In this document: piece by piece, positions 45,760 through 56,926 of the stretch
Position numbering within the stretch: the stretch's first letter is position 1
How the letters are laid out: every line of letters starts with the position of its first letter
NCBI GenBank assembly: GCA_030645475.1
Contig: JAUSMA010000054.1
Span: 1 to 59,556 of the forward strand
Length of the DNA stretch: 59,556 nt
Direction of reading: 5' to 3'
DNA from: Nitrospirota bacterium
GTDB lineage: Bacteria > Nitrospirota > Nitrospiria > Nitrospirales > Nitrospiraceae
Notes under the pieces: generated by a model
What the model saw: the letters and a program-made list of their open reading frames with translations, nothing else
The model's database searches: none
Told to the model about the DNA's origin: nothing
Made by a program: the position numbers and the translations under genes

Positions 45760-46191
45760 TCACCCTGGCGAGACAGTTCTCGTAATCATCGGCAACCGCA
45801 AGGCCAACTCAGCAGCACTGGCCTTGACTCCCTGCTGCACCAAGGCCAGGACCTCGAGAAGATTGAATGGCTTGAGGAGATAGGCCACAGCCCCCAACCG
45901 CATGGCCTCTTCAGCAGATTCGAGACTTCCCCTCCCAGTCACCACGATGACTTTGACGGCTTGGCCACTTGCCCTCACCCGTCGAAGCAACTCCATTCCA
46001 CTGATATCAGGAAGGCCGACATCCATGATGACTAGGTCCATGGGACCTTCACCAATAATTTTCAGCGCGGCAGAAGCCGTCTCCGCCGTATAGACCCGAT
46101 AGAACGAACTGAGAATCATACAGAGGGCCTTTCGAGGCCCCTCTTGATCCTCAACGATCAAAACGTTTGGCTGAGAAGCGCCTATCGCCAT
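45760..46191 (-). CDS. Stand-alone response-regulator receiver protein
   Basis: A 143-aa CheY-like protein with no output domain. VLIVEDQEGPRKALCMIL gives the acidic pocket, VIMDVGLPDISGMELLRRV the phospho-accepting Asp (about residue 59), VIVVTGRGS the Thr, and VAYLLKPFN the Lys. It is a close paralogue of 56531-56926 (same SSFYR(V/I)YTAETASAALKII stretch). ATG at 46191 was chosen by alignment with that paralogue; upstream starts at 46209 and 46269 exist. No kinase is adjacent. Confidence 0.82.
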   Translation of the reverse strand: MAIGASQPNVLIVEDQEGPRKALCMILSSFYRVYTAETASAALKIIGEGPMDLVIMDVGLPDISGMELLRRVRASGQAVKVIVVTGRGSLESAEEAMRLGAVAYLLKPFNLLEVLALVQQGVKASAAELALRLPMITRTVSPG

Positions 46192-46637
46192 CACATGCTC
46201 CGCACACATTCGCTGATCCGACGCCTCATCATACCTGCACATCACATGTCCCACTAGGTGCATTGGCACTCTAAGTCCATTTAACCACGTAACGATAAAA
46301 CACTATATCTCCGGAGAGGCATCCACGGAGAGAATGACTCTACCGACGGATTTGTCCTACAGCGCCGCCAGGCCGAAGTCGACCGTAACACCTCAATACA
46401 TTGAGGCATTGGGCAGGAAGCCTGCTCAGCTGAACGGGCTGACATCCTTTCTTTGTCGCACGCATTGTAGGAATCGCCCTACAGCCGACATAGACTCAGG
46501 CGTAGTGACAACTCATCAGTATCGGTGCGAATCCAGCCATGCACGCCGGCGTCCTGCTATAACCATCGCCCTGCGCCTCAAAGAGCCAGTCGCCCTCCCA
46601 CGGCTGACTCGTTTTTTCCTGGCATTGCATGCACAGC
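46192..46637. other. Long intergenic region, no gene supported
   Basis: About 450 bp before the ECF site. The only structure seen is a small hairpin TGTAGG-AATCGC-CCTACA at 46467-46484 and a repeated CCTACAGC word (46357 and 46479). No open frame has a convincing start or protein-like composition. Confidence 0.4.
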
Positions 46638-46666
46638 GTTTACCTTTTCCTACTCCCGCCGTCTTA
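46638..46666 (+). promoter_or_regulatory. ECF-type promoter, site 4 (RD-repeat gene)
   Basis: GTTTACC at 46638-46644, exactly 15 bp, CGTCTTA at 46660-46666. It matches the three minus-strand sites at 50530, 52091 and 53511 in both boxes, the TT after the -35 box, and spacer length. It lies 117 bp before the ATG. Confidence 0.75.
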
Positions 46667-46783
46667 CTGAGTGACAGGTTGATTGGTGGGGGCCTCCGGA
46701 TGAGAGAGCCGGTTCCATCCCATCCAAGAACAGCCGCGACTCATACGTATCATCCACTCTCTTGCACAGAAGGAGCGCACATC

Positions 46784-47098
46784 ATGAAGAACAGTCTATT
46801 GAAAGTCGGAACGATTGCCAGCTTGGTCATGGCCATGGCAGCCCCCGCCATTCTGCCGAATATCGTCTTCGCGCAGGCGGATGTTCGCCAGGAAGATCGG
46901 CGGGCGGATCGGCAACAGGATCGCCAAGCGGATCGGCGGGAAGATCGTCAGGCCGATCGCCAGCAAGACCGACAGGCTGACCGGCAACAGGATCGCCAGA
47001 TGGACCGTCAGGCGGATCGGCAGATGGATCGCCAGGCAGATCGGCAGCAAGATCGGCAAGCGGATCGGCGTGCCGATCGTGGTGGACGCGGCCGGTAA
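46784..47098 (+). CDS. Secreted Arg/Asp/Gln tetrad-repeat protein
   Basis: A 104-aa protein. Signal peptide at 1-31 (VGTIASLVMAMAAPAILPNI then VFAQA). The mature part is almost entirely tetrads of the form DRQx: ADRQQDRQADRREDRQADRQ and so on, ending GGRGR. Alternating opposite charges with period 4 suggest a charged single helix or a disordered polyampholyte. No family is recognised. GAAGGAG 8 bp before ATG at 46784. Driven by the ECF-type site at 46638 and followed by a strong terminator. Related tails occur in the genes at 51619 and 52214. Confidence 0.75.
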   Translation: MKNSLLKVGTIASLVMAMAAPAILPNIVFAQADVRQEDRRADRQQDRQADRREDRQADRQQDRQADRQQDRQMDRQADRQMDRQADRQQDRQADRRADRGGRGR

Positions 47099-47117
47099 GT
47101 TTGTTCACACGAACGAC

Positions 47118-47159
47118 AAGAGGGGCTCACGACAGATGTCGTGAGCCCCTCTTATTTTT
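47118..47159 (+). terminator. Strong rho-independent terminator
   Basis: AAGAGGGGCTCACGAC pairs with GTCGTGAGCCCCTCTT, loop AGAT, followed by ATTTTT at 47154-47159. Confidence 0.92.
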
Positions 47160-47179
47160 CACCTCAGCCCCCCGAGGAT

Positions 47180-47503
47180 CTACTGATGCCGCTTACCTTG
47201 GCGGTCGTGCTTTTCACAGGCAATGTGGCGCGAGGCACGATCCTGCGCATGGTCGATTCTAGCCCGCTCTCTCTTGGTGACCGTCCCATCTGACTTCGCC
47301 TTATCTTCCATCTTATTGATGTGTTCCTGCTGCTTGTTCAAGCGATTGGCTTCACGCTCATTCAGCTGGCCACTGGCAATCCCCTGATCGATCCGCTTCT
47401 CCTGATTGGCTTGCCGCTGATCGATCACGGGCCCGTCTGCCTGTGCGTAGGCCAGCCCCATGGTCAAGATGACTGCGCTGATGGCGAGCAACATCTGCTT
47501 CAT
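47180..47503 (-). CDS. Small exported charged protein
   Basis: A 107-aa protein. Signal peptide MKQMLLAISAVILTMGLAYA. The mature region has RQANQEKRIDQGIASGQLNE, LNKQQEHINKMEDKAKSDG and RERARIDHAQDRASRHI, a pattern seen in small periplasmic proteins of unknown function; Gly-Gln-Leu-x-x-x-Glu and Asp-Gly-x-(V/L)-T-x-x-E-(R) give a loose EF-hand-like or helix-turn repeat. It is rich in Arg, Gln and Asp like its neighbours, but I found no ECF-type site before it. RBS GAGGAGG 7 bp upstream. Confidence 0.7.
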   Translation of the reverse strand: MKQMLLAISAVILTMGLAYAQADGPVIDQRQANQEKRIDQGIASGQLNEREANRLNKQQEHINKMEDKAKSDGTVTKRERARIDHAQDRASRHIACEKHDRQGKRHQ

Positions 47504-47660
47504 GATTTCCTCCTCAATTAGGTAACGTGTGAGCCCCTGCCTGCAACAACGCGCACACCAACTGTGTGTTGACCACAGAATTCAACCACTTGCCAGCAGC
47601 ACCCCTTCTGCCAAGACTCATTGGTTTCGTCCAAGGGTTTGTCCTTTTATTCAATGGAAA

Positions 47661-47688
47661 AGGGCTGCCCTCTCACGAAGGCAGCCCT
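47661..47688 (-). terminator. Terminator of the CBM48/RD-repeat operon
   Basis: AGGGCTGCC / GGCAGCCCT 9-bp stem; on the minus strand it is followed by TTTTCC. It lies 24 bp after the stop at 47713. Confidence 0.75.
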
Positions 47689-47712
47689 GAGAATAACTCC
47701 AAATCACACATT

Positions 47713-48582
47713 TTAGTGGTCTCTTCCTCCGTGACCACTCCCTCCGCCTCGATCAGGTCGGCTGCCACGATCGGAACCTCCGCTGCGGTCACCGCCACTG
47801 CCACCCCGATCCGAGCTGCCGCTTCGATCGGAGCTCCCACCATGATCGCCACGGTCGCCGCTGCCGGATCCGCTGCGATCTTCCCGAAACAACCGGTCTC
47901 CTCGCTCTCCCCGGCTCACCTGTTCGCGAAGGGTCTGCAGACTCGCACGGCCATCATGGAACTCAGCTCCACGGCGCTTTACTTCCCGGCTGAGATCGAG
48001 CAATTCGGACGATCGATACCCTTGGCGAAGGCCTTCGCCCACCAGCGCAGTCCCATCCTTTGACGAAATTCGGCCCTCTTTCATCACCGCCAGGCTCTTG
48101 GCCCCGGCGGCCAAGGTCTCCTGCGTGACCTTCTGTTTTCCATCCTGAGAGACACGGGCAAGTTCCCGCACTTCCTCCGAAGAGGCGCCACGGGACAACG
48201 CATCGGCCATCATCTCGATAGCCCGCTGACGATTGCCTTCCGCCACACCGCGCGTCCCGACTTCTCGAAGAACTTCTTGCGCCGACTCAAAATGGGTCAC
48301 GAGCTGGCGTAGGACCGGATCGATCCGCTTCGGCTCCACGCCCTTCGCCAACCCTTCTTTCACTTTGTTGGCCAAGGGTTCCGTCGGCAGACCCTTTTCT
48401 CCCGCTTTCGCCACATGGTCCAGCAACTGATTGACCTCTTCGGCCGAATAGCCTTGGGCCGAACGAAGCCGGTTGATCTCCTCGCGATCTTGGACCGACA
48501 GCGTCTCCGCCTGAACGGCCGCGACCGGCAGCCAGAGCGCTACGATGATCAACCCCATGTGTATATTTGTTTGTATACGCAT
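47713..48582 (-). CDS. Exported helical protein with Arg/Asp/Gly/Ser-rich tail
   Basis: A 289-aa protein. Signal peptide MRIQTNIHMGLIIVALWLPV then AAVQA. Residues ~25-220 are helical repeats (EEVNQLLDHVAKAGEKGLPT, LANKVKEGLAKGVEPKRIDP, EGNRQRAIEMMADALSRGAS) with a repeating x-x-L-x-x-G-x-x pattern. The last ~70 residues are low-complexity DRGG/SDRSG repeats. ATG at 48582 has TAAGG 5 bp upstream and starts 4 bp after the previous stop. Last gene of the sigma operon; its function is unknown. Confidence 0.72.
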   Translation of the reverse strand: MRIQTNIHMGLIIVALWLPVAAVQAETLSVQDREEINRLRSAQGYSAEEVNQLLDHVAKAGEKGLPTEPLANKVKEGLAKGVEPKRIDPVLRQLVTHFESAQEVLREVGTRGVAEGNRQRAIEMMADALSRGASSEEVRELARVSQDGKQKVTQETLAAGAKSLAVMKEGRISSKDGTALVGEGLRQGYRSSELLDLSREVKRRGAEFHDGRASLQTLREQVSRGERGDRLFREDRSGSGSGDRGDHGGSSDRSGSSDRGGSGGDRSGGSDRGSRPDRGGGSGHGGRDH

Positions 48583-48586
48583 CGCC

Positions 48587-48946
48587 TTACCGCACCACGA
48601 CCACACCGTTCGTGTGCCCAAACCCATCGGTCACAAAATCTTCTGCCATCGGCGGCGTCACCCATCGAGTGCCGTTCACGAGATAGATGAAGGTATATTC
48701 CCCTTCATTCAAGGGCACCTCGGCCGACCAGAGGCCGTTGCGGTCAATCGCCTTCATCGGCGTGGCCCCCTTGCTCCAGCTGTTGAACGATCCCATCACG
48801 AATACCTCTGTGGCATCCGGTGCCAAAAGCGTAAATCGTACGCCCCCTGACACCCGCTTCGGCAACTCGGGCTTCATCGTCTGTGCGCAGGCCGACAGAC
48901 CGATGAACAACAGCACGATCACGAATCTCGGCACCATCTTGCTCAT
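48587..48946 (-). CDS. Lipoprotein with CBM48/AMPK-type glycogen-binding domain
   Basis: A 119-aa protein. Signal peptide with lipobox FIGLSAC (Cys at about 20). The rest is one CBM48-like module: VRFTLLAPDATEVFVMGSFN, SWSKGATPM, LWSAEVPLNEGEYTFIYLVN and GTRWVTPPMAEDFVTDGFGH. The conserved F-N-x-W and the aromatic positions for glucan contact are present. It closely parallels the C-terminal domain of the upstream anti-sigma candidate. ATG at 48946. It lies between an R125 repeat and the RD-tail gene, tightly coupled to the latter. Confidence 0.8.
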   Translation of the reverse strand: MSKMVPRFVIVLLFIGLSACAQTMKPELPKRVSGGVRFTLLAPDATEVFVMGSFNSWSKGATPMKAIDRNGLWSAEVPLNEGEYTFIYLVNGTRWVTPPMAEDFVTDGFGHTNGVVVVR

Positions 48947-49079
48947 GCGCGTGAGCGTACCCAACTGCGCGACTCGATGCAAGGAAGTCGATATGAGGAT
49001 TCGCAGGCTGTAAAAAAATCGAAACTCCCAATTCGCAATGCGGTCTCCGCACATTTATCATCGTATCTGAACAGGCCAC

Positions 49080-49200
49080 GGGATGCTCAAAAAGGCCGTC
49101 CTGCAAGGCCGCAGCAAACGAAGAGGCGAGGCGTACGCGTCGGTACGTTGAGCCTCTGAGCGCGGCGAGAACGCCGCTGGCGGACTTTTTCAGCATCCTG
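49080..49200 (+). repeat. R125 repeat inside the sigma operon
   Basis: GGATGCTCAAAAAGGCCGTCC to GGACTTTTTCAGCATCCTG (quoted in part), inner stem GAGGC/GCCTC unlike other copies. It directly abuts the TAA of the anti-sigma candidate and separates it from the lipoprotein gene, so it may act as an attenuator or terminator. Confidence 0.9.
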
Positions 49201-49887
49201 TTAGATACTGACATCGAGCACCGCATTCTGCGCTCCAAACCCATCGCCTGCCCCCTCTGCTGCCAGTGGGTCGGCAATCCATTGTTTGCCATCGATCACA
49301 AACATATATTGATAACGTCCCGGCTTCAGTGGAATCGTCGCCGTCCACAGGCCACCTTCGGATCGTTCCAACTGCGTCTGCCCTGGATTCCAGCCGTTAA
49401 AATCTCCCGCGACCGAGACCGACTTGGCACCAGGCTGAAGCAACACGAGCCGCACAAACACGGTAGTCTCTTGCCCAGGTGCGAATGACGCCTGCTGCGC
49501 CTGCCCCCCGGCAACCGGCACAGGCACTTCCACAATCCGTTCAGGCCCAACACGCAGCAGACCCACAACAGCGACCACCACCACACAAGCCGCAGCCATC
49601 GCGCCGGCCAGATTCCACTCCAACGTCCGCGGCAACGTCATGGCTGCGCGGAGTCGATCCCAGAGGCTGATGGACTCCGGCGCAAGCTTGGCCTGCACCT
49701 GCGCCATAAATCGCGCCGACGGCGCGACACGAGGCAACTGCGCTGCTTGGCTCACCACGAGTTCAAGGTTCAGCCAGCGCCGCCGCAACGACTGATCGGT
49801 ATCCATCGCCTGAAGAAACGTCACCCGCTCCTCCGGCGTCAGATCGTCATCGAGAAAGCGTTGGATCAGCAGCTCTTGTTCTCGCAT
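49201..49887 (-). CDS. Membrane anti-sigma factor candidate with CBM48 sensor domain
   Basis: A 228-aa protein. The N-terminal ~75 residues (ELLIQRFLDDDLTPEERVTF) match the zinc-less anti-sigma layout seen after ECF sigma genes. One transmembrane helix is at about 92-112 (LAGAMAAACVVVVAVVGLL). The extracytoplasmic C-terminus (about 145-228) is a CBM48/AMPK-type domain: FVRLVLLQPGAKSVSVAGDF, NGWNPGQTQL, LWTATIPLKPGRYQYMFVID. It starts 3 bp after the sigma stop. Fusion of an anti-sigma layout to a glucan-binding fold is unusual and suggests carbohydrate or envelope sensing. The role is inferred from position and topology. Confidence 0.72.
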   Translation of the reverse strand: MREQELLIQRFLDDDLTPEERVTFLQAMDTDQSLRRRWLNLELVVSQAAQLPRVAPSARFMAQVQAKLAPESISLWDRLRAAMTLPRTLEWNLAGAMAAACVVVVAVVGLLRVGPERIVEVPVPVAGGQAQQASFAPGQETTVFVRLVLLQPGAKSVSVAGDFNGWNPGQTQLERSEGGLWTATIPLKPGRYQYMFVIDGKQWIADPLAAEGAGDGFGAQNAVLDVSI

Positions 49888-49889
49888 CG

Positions 49890-50474
49890 CTACGCCTCTT
49901 TCAATTCTGCCAACTCACGACTCAACTGCACCCGTCCCTTATACACCCGCATTTTCAACGTATCGCCATTTACCCCGAGAATCTCCTGCATCTCTTCGTA
50001 ACTCAACCCTTCGACATGCTTCAAGACAAAGGCTTCTCGGTAGAGGGGCGGCAGCCGCTGGATCGCCCGATCCAATTCAGCAGCAACTTGCTGCTGCGAC
50101 AAGAGCCGTTCCGGGGTCCGCGCCTCCACCACTCGATCGTCGAGCACGTCTTCGATCTCGACATCTTGGAGCCCCTGCCCTGGCCGTTTGACTCTAAGCC
50201 AATCCTTGCACTTGTTGGCTGCGATCCGGTAGAGCCAGGTGGAAAACTTCGACTCGGCCCTGAACGTCGGCAGCGCTTTGAACGCCGCCACAAACGTCTC
50301 TTGGGCCAGATCCTCCGCCTCCGTCCGATCCCCCACCATGCGGTAAGCCAAGTTCACAATCACCGTCGCATATCGTTCGACTAACTGGCCGAATGCATCC
50401 TGGTCCTGCTTGAGGCAGCGAGCAACCAACTTGGCCTCGTCTGCCGCTCCTCGTGGGTCTAGCAGTATCGCCAT
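49890..50474 (-). CDS. ECF RNA polymerase sigma factor (RpoE-like)
   Basis: A 194-aa sigma factor. Region 2: DAFGQLVERYATVIVNLAYR, MVGDRTEAEDLAQETFVAAF and STWLYRIAANKCKDWLRVKR (about 27-105). Region 4: IQRLPPLYREAFVLKHVEGL and SYEEMQEILGVNGDTLKMRV (about 137-180). It is preceded by an ECF-type site with -10 box 56 bp upstream of the ATG, so it probably activates itself. First gene of an operon with the CBM48 anti-sigma candidate. Three more copies of the same promoter lie within 7 kb. Confidence 0.88.
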   Translation of the reverse strand: MAILLDPRGAADEAKLVARCLKQDQDAFGQLVERYATVIVNLAYRMVGDRTEAEDLAQETFVAAFKALPTFRAESKFSTWLYRIAANKCKDWLRVKRPGQGLQDVEIEDVLDDRVVEARTPERLLSQQQVAAELDRAIQRLPPLYREAFVLKHVEGLSYEEMQEILGVNGDTLKMRVYKGRVQLSRELAELKEA

Positions 50475-50529
50475 GCTCGTTCACCCTGCATGGCCGCTGC
50501 CGAATATCCCATTCTGCTTCCCTGATCTA

Positions 50530-50558
50530 TTAGACGAGTCATCACGGTGAAGGTAAAC
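50530..50558 (-). promoter_or_regulatory. ECF-type promoter, site 1 (sigma operon)
   Basis: On the minus strand GTTTACC (50558-50552), 15 bp, CGTCTAA (50536-50530), giving a leader of about 50 nt to the sigma start at 50474. Confidence 0.78.
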
Positions 50559-50571
50559 GCCTACAAAATGA

Positions 50572-51504
50572 TTAGAATCGGTAACTGGCCCCGACCGAGA
50601 ATGCTTGATCCGGAGCCCCATTGGATACGCCTAGCGTCACACCGGCATTCAATCTCCAGGCCGCCGAAGCCGTATAGTTCACCGCGAAGAAAACATCACG
50701 GGCATTTACAAACCCCGGGACAATGGCTCGGTACTCTTCGAAATAGACGCTCGCCAAGAGATCTTTCGTCACGTAGTAACCGGCCCCGACGTCATACCAA
50801 TATTGATTCTGGAAGTTCAGCCCATCGGGATCCCCGATGATGTTGTAGCCCCCATCCAAAAATGCAATCCAACTATTGCCCAACATTTTGGACATTTCGA
50901 TGCCTGCCCCATAGTCCCATTCGCCGGTTCCAAGGCCCTGGCTGGCACTCGCCGTCGGCATCTTCACCCGTCCCGTTACCGCGATAAGCGGGAGATAGTC
51001 ATTTTCTTCCACTACATAGTAGCGCCCTCTCAGAATAATATCGCCGAGACCCGACGTCGTTACTTTTTGTCCGGCTGTTCTGGTTGTAGTTCCGCACGTG
51101 CGGTTCTTCCCGCTCACGTTAGAATTCTTCCCGCTACAGCCTCCATCGTCAGGAGTGCCTCCCCCTCCACCGCCCGATCCACTATTCGTGTTATCGTCGA
51201 CTCGTGTAGCCGTACCGCCGACAAGAGTGGTCCGTCCATCGCTAGTCGCGGTCACAAATGGGATAACCAGGGTCACATCGCCATCTTTAAACATTCTCCG
51301 AATCGATAGGGGCGCATAAAAAAATGTGCTGGTCGTGCCAGTCCCGAAGTTGCCACTGCTATAGCTGGGGGTAAACCCGAGCTGCCAATTGCGATCAGGG
51401 GAAGGTGGACCTTGATCGGTCTTATCCGCCGCATTGCCCACCATAACCCAGAGCCCCAAACACATAACGACACCGATCAGCACTCTTGTCCATTTCAACA
51501 TCAT
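50572..51504 (-). CDS. Outer-membrane beta-barrel protein (MetA-phenol-degradation-like)
   Basis: A 310-aa protein. Signal peptide (VLIGVVMCLGLWVMVGNAA). Alternating amphipathic strands (WQLGFTPSYSSGNFGTGTTS, DIILRGRYYVV, WDYGAGIEMSKMLGNSWIAF) and a C-terminal SVGASYRF ending in Phe indicate an outer-membrane barrel. A Gly/Ser/Cys-rich insert at about 105-140 (NTNSGSGGGGGGTPDDGGCS) is a probable long loop. It lies 114 bp downstream of the RD-repeat gene at 51619 with a hairpin between, so it may be the second, attenuated gene of that ECF-driven unit. Confidence 0.72.
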   Translation of the reverse strand: MMLKWTRVLIGVVMCLGLWVMVGNAADKTDQGPPSPDRNWQLGFTPSYSSGNFGTGTTSTFFYAPLSIRRMFKDGDVTLVIPFVTATSDGRTTLVGGTATRVDDNTNSGSGGGGGGTPDDGGCSGKNSNVSGKNRTCGTTTRTAGQKVTTSGLGDIILRGRYYVVEENDYLPLIAVTGRVKMPTASASQGLGTGEWDYGAGIEMSKMLGNSWIAFLDGGYNIIGDPDGLNFQNQYWYDVGAGYYVTKDLLASVYFEEYRAIVPGFVNARDVFFAVNYTASAAWRLNAGVTLGVSNGAPDQAFSVGASYRF

Positions 51505-51559
51505 GACTCCTTCAATCTTTCTATCTCTGATTCACACCATCGATAGCGCTCATAACACA

Positions 51560-51588
51560 GCGGCGTCGGGCAAGTCTCCCGACGCCGC
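51560..51588 (-). terminator. Hairpin (attenuator-like) between RD-repeat and barrel genes
   Basis: GCGGCGTCGGG / CCCGACGCCGC, a perfect 11-bp GC stem with a 7-nt loop. No T-run follows, so it may be a partial terminator or an mRNA-stability element. Confidence 0.65.
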
Positions 51589-51618
51589 CATCTCGCCGTA
51601 ACCGACAGCGAGGTCGAT

Positions 51619-51987
51619 CTAGTTGCGCCCAGCTCGCTCCGGCTTTTCCGGCCGTTCCGGTCTCTGCGGTCGTTCGGGGCGTTCCGGACGCTGCGAGCGC
51701 TCAACCCGTTCGGGGCGATTTGAGCGATCCATCTGGACAGACCGTGCATTGTCTCGCCCTTCCCGCCCATGCTCGCCCGCCACTTGATCTGCCCGATCGA
51801 GTCCGCGCACCTCGCCGCCGGCACTGGAACGGCGATCCTCCCGTCGATCTTCCTGCTTCAATCCTCGATCCTCTTGCCGTAACCCTCGATCCTCCTGGCG
51901 AACGTCACCCACCTGAGCAAATAGTGCGGGTACACCCACACTGGATAAGAGAAGCGACAAGACTGTGATGTGAGTTAAACGATTCAT
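51619..51987 (-). CDS. Secreted Arg/Asp/Glu/Pro-repeat protein
   Basis: A 122-aa protein. Signal peptide MNRLTHITVLSLLLSSVGVP then ALFAQ. The mature region has two repeat blocks: DVRQEDRGLRQEDRGLKQED (period 7) and RPERVERSQRPERPERPQRP (period 3-4 with Arg-Pro-Glu). The opening DVRQEDR is shared with the 46784 protein. It is polyampholytic, likely disordered. ATG at 51987 with AGGAGGGT upstream; an ECF-type site is 104 bp upstream. Confidence 0.72.
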   Translation of the reverse strand: MNRLTHITVLSLLLSSVGVPALFAQVGDVRQEDRGLRQEDRGLKQEDRREDRRSSAGGEVRGLDRADQVAGEHGREGRDNARSVQMDRSNRPERVERSQRPERPERPQRPERPEKPERAGRN

Positions 51988-52090
51988 ACCCTCCTCCTTT
52001 TTCTATGCCACGTTGAACACGATAACCAGATCGCCACATTGCTGCAAGCTCACAGCGCCCCAGGCCTCACACGACCTTGACTCTACCTAG

Positions 52091-52119
52091 TAAGACGAGG
52101 GAACGATGCCAAGGTAAAC
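52091..52119 (-). promoter_or_regulatory. ECF-type promoter, site 2
   Basis: On the minus strand GTTTACC (52119-52113), 15 bp, CGTCTTA (52097-52091), upstream of the secreted repeat protein starting at 51987. Confidence 0.75.
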
Positions 52120-52213
52120 ACCCTCTCTCACGCTTGATACGTCACCCCAAAAACATGAGCGCCAAGTCACGCCTTCGCAACCACTCGCTCTGTCCACCTG
52201 ACCAAGATCGACC

Positions 52214-52984
52214 TTACCGACTACGGCTGGCTCGATCTGCTCGACGATCAAGCTGACGGTCCTCTCGGCGATCGGCCTGATGATCGAGTTGGCGATCCTC
52301 GCGGCGGTCTACCCGACGATCGTCGTTTACATGCCGGACATCGTCACGGCCACCATGGCCGGATCCACTATTGGCGGAACCAGGCCCACGATTATCGGAT
52401 CCATGCCCGCTATTCCCAGAGCCGGGACCGCTGTTATCACTTCCACCTCGTCCGCCTCGAATGTCGGCCTGATTGCCGCCACGATCATTCACCCCCTCCA
52501 GGCGAAGTCGATCGAACTGCGCGCGAAGGCTCTGCCGTTCGGCTTCCGTCAGTTGCGATTGATCGACACCTTCAATCCTGGCCCGCAACTGTCCTTCTTC
52601 CCGTCCGACCCTTACCCGAACGTCACCGCTACGAAAGGTGACATTCCGTTCTGCGCCGTTCGCCGACGGCACGACGCTCGACACCTGGCGAAGCAGATTC
52701 TTGTTGGGATCGCTGTTCAGGAAGAGCACCCGCTGCTCGGCCTCTGTCAACGACACATTACGGAACTGCACTTCCTGCACCCCTGGCCGTGCGAATTGCG
52801 TTTGAATCGTTTGCTTCAGCGCCTCGATATCCACCGAGCCAGAGCCAGTCCTCGGCAACGCCCCGCTGATCTCGACCTGCCCATTCTGAATCGGCGAAAC
52901 AGTTTGAGCCCAGACCGAACTCGTCACGAGGGCCAATCCACTCACAATCCATACTGTCAGCTGATTCACGCGAAACCCTTTCAT
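52214..52984 (-). CDS. Exported protein with Arg/Asp-repeat C-terminus
   Basis: A 256-aa protein. Signal peptide VNQLTVWIVSGLALVTSSVW then A. About 28-160 is a globular region (VDIEALKQTIQTQFARPGVQ, LTEAEQRVLFLNSDPNKNLL, VRVRVGREEGQLRARIEGVD). About 165-205 is Gly/Ser/Asn-rich, and the final ~40 residues are RD repeats (DRREDRQLDHQADRREDRQL). The Gly-rich block repeats GSGNSGHGSDN-like units. ATG at 52984 has GGAAGGAGGGG upstream. It follows the lipoprotein gene at 55 bp, in the same ECF-driven unit. Confidence 0.72.
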   Translation of the reverse strand: MKGFRVNQLTVWIVSGLALVTSSVWAQTVSPIQNGQVEISGALPRTGSGSVDIEALKQTIQTQFARPGVQEVQFRNVSLTEAEQRVLFLNSDPNKNLLRQVSSVVPSANGAERNVTFRSGDVRVRVGREEGQLRARIEGVDQSQLTEAERQSLRAQFDRLRLEGVNDRGGNQADIRGGRGGSDNSGPGSGNSGHGSDNRGPGSANSGSGHGGRDDVRHVNDDRRVDRREDRQLDHQADRREDRQLDRRADRASRSR

Positions 52985-53039
52985 GGTGCCCCTCCTTCCC
53001 CTGTTTGTTTCATAACGAAAACACTGACTGGCCTGCCGA

Positions 53040-53480
53040 CTACGATCTCGGTTTAGGCAGATCCCCATGAGACGATCCTGCCGGCCTCGGCATATCAGCC
53101 AACACATCCGCCGACCAGGCGACGTGCGCCGGGCACCATTGCCATACACCGAGGGTGATGATTCGAGTAAGACCGGCAGGAATACAGGCCGTCGTATTCA
53201 CCGACACCTTTCGATTGACGACACGCGTCGAAGCCCCACAACGATTCAAGTAGGGTTCGCTGGCCACTTTGTGCAGGTCGAAGTGAGGGACAAAGAAAGC
53301 GACCACCGGCACCGGCAGGACCGCTAACGAAGAGTTGTCCACCCATTCGCCTCCGGCGCAGTGGCCGTCCAACCCCGCGGTTCGTTTCACATCGTCTCGA
53401 ACCAATGTCGACGTGCAACCAGGCAGGAGCAGAAGAATTAAAAGAACGAGCACACTCGCTGTTGAATGGACCTGTCGCAT
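53040..53480 (-). CDS. Bor-like lipoprotein
   Basis: A 146-aa protein. Signal peptide with lipobox ILLLLPGC (Cys at about 22). The C-terminal half resembles Bor/Iss-type proteins loosely: RCGASTRVVNRKVSVNTTAC, then GLTRIITLGVWQWCPAHVAW, with Cys pairs and the I-T-L-G-(I/V) motif. The mature N-terminus is unassigned. It is the first gene after the ECF-type site at 53511, with a strong GGAGGAAGGAGGG leader. The repeat-tailed gene 52214 follows. Confidence 0.6.
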   Translation of the reverse strand: MRQVHSTASVLVLLILLLLPGCTSTLVRDDVKRTAGLDGHCAGGEWVDNSSLAVLPVPVVAFFVPHFDLHKVASEPYLNRCGASTRVVNRKVSVNTTACIPAGLTRIITLGVWQWCPAHVAWSADVLADMPRPAGSSHGDLPKPRS

Positions 53481-53510
53481 GAAGCCCTCCTTCCTCCTTC
53501 GCCTAATGGG

Positions 53511-53539
53511 TTAGACGAGGGAGGGGGAGAAAGGTAAAC
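53511..53539 (-). promoter_or_regulatory. ECF-type promoter, site 3
   Basis: On the minus strand GTTTACC (53539-53533), 15 bp, CGTCTAA (53517-53511). The predicted leader to the ATG at 53480 is only about 25 nt and contains the RBS. Confidence 0.78.
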
Positions 53540-56530: not shown

Positions 56531-56926
56531 TCATTGTGCCAATTTCGTGTCCTTGACCTTCAACGCATCCTCAACCAGAGTAAGCACCTCTTGAAAATTG
56601 AACGGCTTGAGCAGATAGGCCACCGCTCCCAATCGTAACACTTCTTCAGCAGACTCGATGGAGGCCCCCCCGGTCATGACAATCACTTTGACCTCTTGCC
56701 CGCTAGCTCTGACCCGTCGAAGCAACTCGATACCGCTATAGTCGGGAAGACCGACATCCATAAGGATCAGGTCGATGGGGCATTCGACAATAATCTTTAG
56801 CGCAGCTGAGGCCGTCTCCGCCGTATAGATCCGATAGAACGAGCTGAGAATCATCATCAGGGCCCTACGCGGGCCCTCTTGATCCTCAACAACGAGAATA
56901 GTCTGCTCAGATGGGGTTGCTGCCAT
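56531..56926 (-). CDS. Stand-alone response-regulator receiver protein
   Basis: A 131-aa CheY-like receiver without output domain. ILVVEDQEGPRRALMMIL (about 10-27), LILMDVGLPDYSGIELLRRV (phospho-Asp about 58), VIVMTGGAS and VAYLLKPFNFQEVLTLVEDA. Paralogue of the protein at 45760, differing mainly in the C-terminal tail. It lies between the two propeller genes on the same strand, and no histidine kinase is present in the window. Confidence 0.85.
   Translation of the reverse strand: MAATPSEQTILVVEDQEGPRRALMMILSSFYRIYTAETASAALKIIVECPIDLILMDVGLPDYSGIELLRRVRASGQEVKVIVMTGGASIESAEEVLRLGAVAYLLKPFNFQEVLTLVEDALKVKDTKLAQ

Follow-up and report, generated by a model that had tools for sequence, protein, structure and literature searches.

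Genes and repeated sites at the locus

The DNA analysed, referred to here as the window, is the 59,556-nucleotide contig JAUSMA010000054.1 of a Nitrospirota bacterium (Nitrospiraceae; assembly GCA_030645475.1). It carries a minus-strand operon that begins with the gene for an ECF sigma factor (49890–50474). Only the sigma2 and sigma4 domains of this protein scored above the Pfam cut-off (Sigma70_r2, PF04542, E = 2e-22; r4_2, PF08281, E = 1.7e-14), the domain content of a group IV sigma factor. Its closest solved structure is SigW, and the sigma4 recognition region reads DTLKMRVYKGR in those orthologs from which it was extracted. The gene for a putative membrane anti-sigma factor (49201–49887, minus strand) lies 2 bp away, and the gene order is the same in orthologs; the pair is predicted to be co-transcribed, as expected of an ECF sigma factor and its adjacent partner. 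In its predicted layout, the anti-sigma factor has a helical domain on the cytoplasmic side, a single membrane helix (residues ∼93–111) and a CBM48 domain in the periplasm. The latter was recognised by two Pfam families, both above cut-off (AMPK1_CBM, PF16561, 41.4 bits, E = 1.7e-10; CBM_48, PF02922, 41.3 bits, E = 2e-10), and a Foldseek search with the predicted model matched 1z0m (E = 7.8e-6). For the N-terminal part, Pfam gave no match and the NCBIfam antisigma match was weak (31 of 100 bits, far under cut-off); a model of moderate confidence places helices at residues 3–12, 18–30, 32–48 and 58–68, the class I anti-sigma domain (ASDI) being defined as a three-helix bundle plus a fourth helix.

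The operon continues on the same strand with a CBM48 lipoprotein (48587–48946; CBM_48, E = 1.2e-10), which is barely more than a CBM48 domain and whose lipobox cysteine and CBM tryptophans are invariant in the alignment. The last gene encodes an exported helical protein (47713–48582), whose place in the operon is backed by conserved gene order in nearly all of the sigma-positive loci inspected, and is followed by a likely intrinsic terminator (47661–47688, minus strand; 12-bp stem and T run). Upstream of the sigma gene, and adjoining it in nearly all orthologous loci, is an outer-membrane-type protein gene (50572–51504, minus strand; Phenol_MetA_deg, PF13557, E = 5.8e-9), probably in one unit with rd2 (51619–51987, minus strand), an open reading frame with orthologs that encodes a small exported charged protein with RQEDR repeats. 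Further upstream, a third minus-strand unit comprises lip (53040–53480), a small conserved lipoprotein with the lipobox LLPGC, and rd3 (52214–52984), which has orthologs, a start set by its ribosome-binding site, and an exported product with an Asp/Arg-rich repeat tail. The lipobox cysteine of Lip is invariant in the alignment; a Pfam search assigned it no family, no solved structural relative was found and its predicted model was poor (mean pLDDT 43). On the plus strand, rd1 (46784–47098) encodes a small exported Asp/Arg/Gln repeat protein with a signal-peptide-like start and a ribosome-binding site, and a strong terminator with a 16-bp stem follows (47118–47153, plus strand). Besides the sigma factor, each of the four units codes for exported or membrane proteins. 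The products of rd1, rd2 and rd3, which gave no Pfam family and no NCBIfam match near cut-off, share four-residue repeats of the DRQA/DRRE type in which neighbouring residues are oppositely charged throughout.

An initial annotation had reported four matching promoters at this locus, and all four were found at the positions and on the strands described: P1 (53511–53539, minus), P2 (52091–52119, minus), P3 (50530–50558, minus) and P4 (46638–46666, plus). Each is an exact match to GTTTACCTT-N13-CGTCTWA, ending in CGTCTAA at P1 and P3 and in CGTCTTA at P2 and P4. None is more than 7 kb from the sigma gene, and every one faces a gene start, in agreement with the earlier description of each as preceding a unit for the sigma factor or small exported proteins. 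The distance from the end of the -10 box to the ATG is 30 bp for the lipoprotein (P1), 103 bp for rd2 (P2), 55 bp for the sigma factor (P3) and 117 bp for rd1 (P4), and the spacers and flanks of the four copies are not alike. P3 is apparently autoregulatory: the sigma factor is predicted to activate its own gene through this motif, a property expected of ECF sigma factors.

Two details of the annotation required revision. The spacer had been given as exactly 15 bp, which is the distance from GTTTACC to CGTC; the strings that were quoted have 13 bp between them, in line with the N13 of the annotation's own search pattern, and 16 bp separate the conserved GTTTAC from CGTC. Of the ECF-type boxes, the CGTC -10 stands, and the AAC core claimed for the -35 does not, as this box reads GTTTAC and thus ends in TAC. 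We take RTTTAC-N16-CGTC to be the true promoter core.

Conservation of the motif with the sigma factor

The four matches in the window compare with none in 100 dinucleotide shuffles of it. A motif scan of the whole 3.75 Mb genome, proposed earlier as a check, returned those four sites and no fifth exact copy, and the looser TTTAC-N16-CGTCWNA again recovered only these (reversed control, three). Allowing up to three mismatches gave 25 matches in the genome versus 38 in the reversed control; therefore, the exact set alone stands out and further sites cannot be claimed. A variable-spacing match at C20 and a two-mismatch match at C17 were rejected because neither had a convincing gene start downstream.

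We then examined 175 genomes of the family, counting the sigma factor as present at E below 1e-50, which was the case in 61. The strict motif (A or G as first base) gave 64 matches in 46 of the 175 genomes and none in the reversed control. It occurred in 43 of the 61 sigma-positive genomes versus 3 of the 114 sigma-negative ones (Fisher P = 7.8e-23). By hand count, the core RTTTAC-N16-CGTCTWA had about 200 matches across the family versus 17 in the control, and was present in 59/61 sigma-positive and 22/114 sigma-negative genomes. In the three sigma-negative genomes with the strict motif (G120, G146 and G154), parts of the locus persist, including one or both of the outer promoters, and the sigma gene is missing. 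In G120 (L142, G120:C24), about 4.95 kb is absent relative to G121 (L134, G121:C50), from the interior of the lipoprotein gene to the interior of the anti-sigma gene, sigma included; the flanks are 97–98% identical and both outer promoters are intact. Either the segment was lost naturally and recently or the gap is an assembly artefact. A similar loss was seen in G146. A recurring GTTTACACTTTGGCTCATAACTCGTCTAA site in sigma-negative genomes lacked a convincing downstream gene start and, being probably unrelated, was not considered further.

The positions of the promoters are conserved as well. The annotation had suggested comparing the regions upstream of orthologous sigma genes, and RTTTAC-N16/17-CGTC was kept there in 30 of 33 orthologs, usually 55–57 bp 5′ of the start. 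GTTTAC..CGTCTAA is retained even at a locus (L046) whose sigma factor is only 51% identical. Across the sigma-gene promoters, positions 2–6 of GTTTAC and all of CGTC reach 2.0 bits, whereas the spacer is nearly random (mean below 0.5). The position of P1 is kept in most orthologs, with the box of the lipoprotein promoter starting 59 bp (16/24) or 54–62 bp 5′ of the gene start; P2 is conserved in G139 and G156, and P4 is kept with rd1 in relatives. Directly after GTTTAC, the triplet CTT is found in 19/26 lip, 11/13 rd1 and 3/3 rd2 distinct sequences versus 6/28 at the sigma promoter, and the spacer is 77–86% pyrimidine in the target promoters versus 56% in that of the sigma gene. The CTT and pyrimidine-rich spacer, absent from the sigma gene's own promoter in most relatives, suggest that the target promoters may be stronger and the autoregulatory promoter weaker.

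This promoter is also found in relatives before lipoprotein paralogs at other genomic locations, as well as before an outer-membrane beta-barrel protein (PF13505) and a YncE-like protein. An alginate-export-type porin (PF13372) is preceded by the promoter with one mismatch, and one further site lies 147 bp 5′ of a YhdP/AsmA-family gene. These additional targets are all envelope-like in appearance, which speaks for an envelope response and offers the chief hint at what the regulon does. In one relative, G069 (L183), the core precedes a protein with a YncE-like match; in the window, a large YncE-like beta-propeller repeat protein is encoded just upstream of P1 (53862–56060).

A proposed self-activating envelope regulon and its alternatives

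Since the motif is unique in the genome and recurs before the same genes across related Nitrospira, the four sites very probably serve as promoters in a cell-envelope response of small size. We propose that they belong to one small regulon and are recognised by the ECF sigma factor at 49890–50474. The anti-sigma factor would keep the sigma factor inactive through its cytoplasmic helical domain, while its CBM48 domain would sense a periplasmic signal, presumably a change in the envelope or in cell-surface carbohydrate. Freed sigma factor would then transcribe its own operon (sigma, anti-sigma, CBM48 lipoprotein and exported helical protein) and the three flanking units, which supply the lipoprotein, the outer-membrane-type protein and the small exported Asp/Arg-rich proteins. 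We assign a probability of roughly 0.86 to P1–P4 serving such an envelope regulon, which activates itself and pairs an ECF sigma factor with a CBM48 anti-sigma factor, anti-sigma restraint and periplasmic sensing included; direct transcription, sequestration and the signal are the parts that we infer. The annotation had likewise placed the regulon under this sigma factor, and its proposal is strengthened by the genome-wide uniqueness of the motif, its co-occurrence with the sigma gene in the 175 genomes and its orthologous positions, among them the promoter of the sigma gene itself.

The alternative that survives best, though we consider it improbable, is that the motif is a promoter element served by one or more other ECF sigma factors of this bacterium. 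At least three further ECF-like sigma factors are encoded in the genome (38, 30 and 26% identity), and by hand count about 8 of the 16 copies of the lipoprotein paralog lip2 in sigma-negative genomes retain the core. Either the box is not exclusive to this sigma factor in every species or these genomes are incomplete. The lip2 promoters (L169, L179, L206, L207) also contain an overlapping sigma-70-like TTGACG-N17-TAGCCT that is shifted against the GTTTAC and CGTC boxes, which suggests that lip2 may be under dual control. Against service by another sigma factor, all copies in this genome cluster around the sigma gene at 49890, motif and sigma factor co-occur strongly, and the core precedes the sigma gene in nearly all orthologs. 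Some of the sigma-negative genomes have a disrupted -35 (ATTTGC, GTTTCC or GTCTAC), as expected if constraint had been lost.

Two closely similar single-domain response regulators are encoded one on either side of the regulon (45760–46269 and 56531–56926), and response regulators can bind half sites at fixed spacing. It is nevertheless very unlikely that the repeats are binding sites of a DNA-binding regulator, for example one acting with these response regulators, in place of sigma promoters: they have the two-box ECF form, with a CGTC -10 and a 16-bp gap, and lie a short, constant distance from start codons, and the motif tracks the sigma gene and is present at loci without a detected close copy of those response regulators. 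That the four copies are functionless products of chance or local duplication is barely credible, given that spacers and flanks differ and the boxes alone are conserved over divergent genomes, even if all copies fall inside 7 kb and before the partly similar genes rd1, rd2 and rd3.

Relation to known systems

The proposed ECF sigma/CBM48 anti-sigma regulon resembles the ECF/ASDI systems SigW/RsiW and RpoE/RseA in its two-domain sigma factor and adjacent membrane anti-sigma factor with an N-terminal helical region (PMC7406223, PMC8103513), and in its apparent positive autoregulation, envelope-type targets and CGTC -10 with a 16-bp gap. Like RseA and RskA, the Nitrospira anti-sigma factor has no Hx3Cx2C zinc motif. 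The system differs from SigW/RsiW and RpoE/RseA in its GTTTAC -35 (TAC, not AAC), its DTLKMRVYKGR-type sigma4 region and the CBM48 sensor of its anti-sigma factor, and its regulon in this genome amounts to four promoters, all local. An AAC in the -35 with a CGT in the -10 was the historical hallmark of ECF promoters and has been dropped as a requirement in the updated definition (PMC8103513). The group of this sigma factor may already be numbered in the 157-group ECF classification.

We consider the CBM48 sensor, absent from the initial annotation, to be the more unusual part of the system. The domain has its family and fold in common with the glycogen-binding domain of AMPK beta (PF16561, PF02922), and two tryptophans and an asparagine, all of them invariant, align with the glucan-binding residues of that protein. 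In contrast to AMPK beta, the anti-sigma factor has a methionine aligned with the lysine of the binding site, and its domain belongs to a membrane regulator and is predicted to face the periplasm. Membrane anti-sigma factors with an extracellular carbohydrate-binding-type domain are also found in SigI/RsgI systems, although the likeness is only in how the system works: SigI is another kind of sigma factor than the ECF sigma at 49890, and we know of no CBM48 in SigI/RsgI systems. Cellulolytic clostridia use these systems to sense polysaccharides (PMC4711584, PMC6056542), and the Nitrospira regulon differs from them in having no glycoside hydrolase targets.

In the literature searched, we found no description of CBM48 or glycogen-binding anti-sigma factors, nor of an ECF regulon or ECF sigma factors in Nitrospira. 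Nitrospira, which are nitrite oxidisers and complete nitrifiers, are difficult to manipulate; here, promoter sequence, sigma factor and targets are open to prediction at single-base resolution. A more specific scheme, in which the CBM48 lipoprotein would act as co-receptor and the CBM48 domain of the anti-sigma factor as the direct receptor of a surface polysaccharide or alpha-glucan, in a class of carbohydrate-sensing ECF control common to Nitrospirota, Gemmatimonadota and Atribacterota, is a tentative idea that we hold to be rather doubtful. Outside the Nitrospirota, a CBM48-bearing partner directly follows an ECF sigma gene at one locus in Atribacterota and at seven in Gemmatimonadota. Of the latter, three share GTGACC..CGTCTTA before the sigma gene, which is weak evidence because the three are closely related. 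The presence of this anti-sigma layout beside ECF sigma genes in at least three phyla suggests that carbohydrate-related input may feed into ECF signalling.
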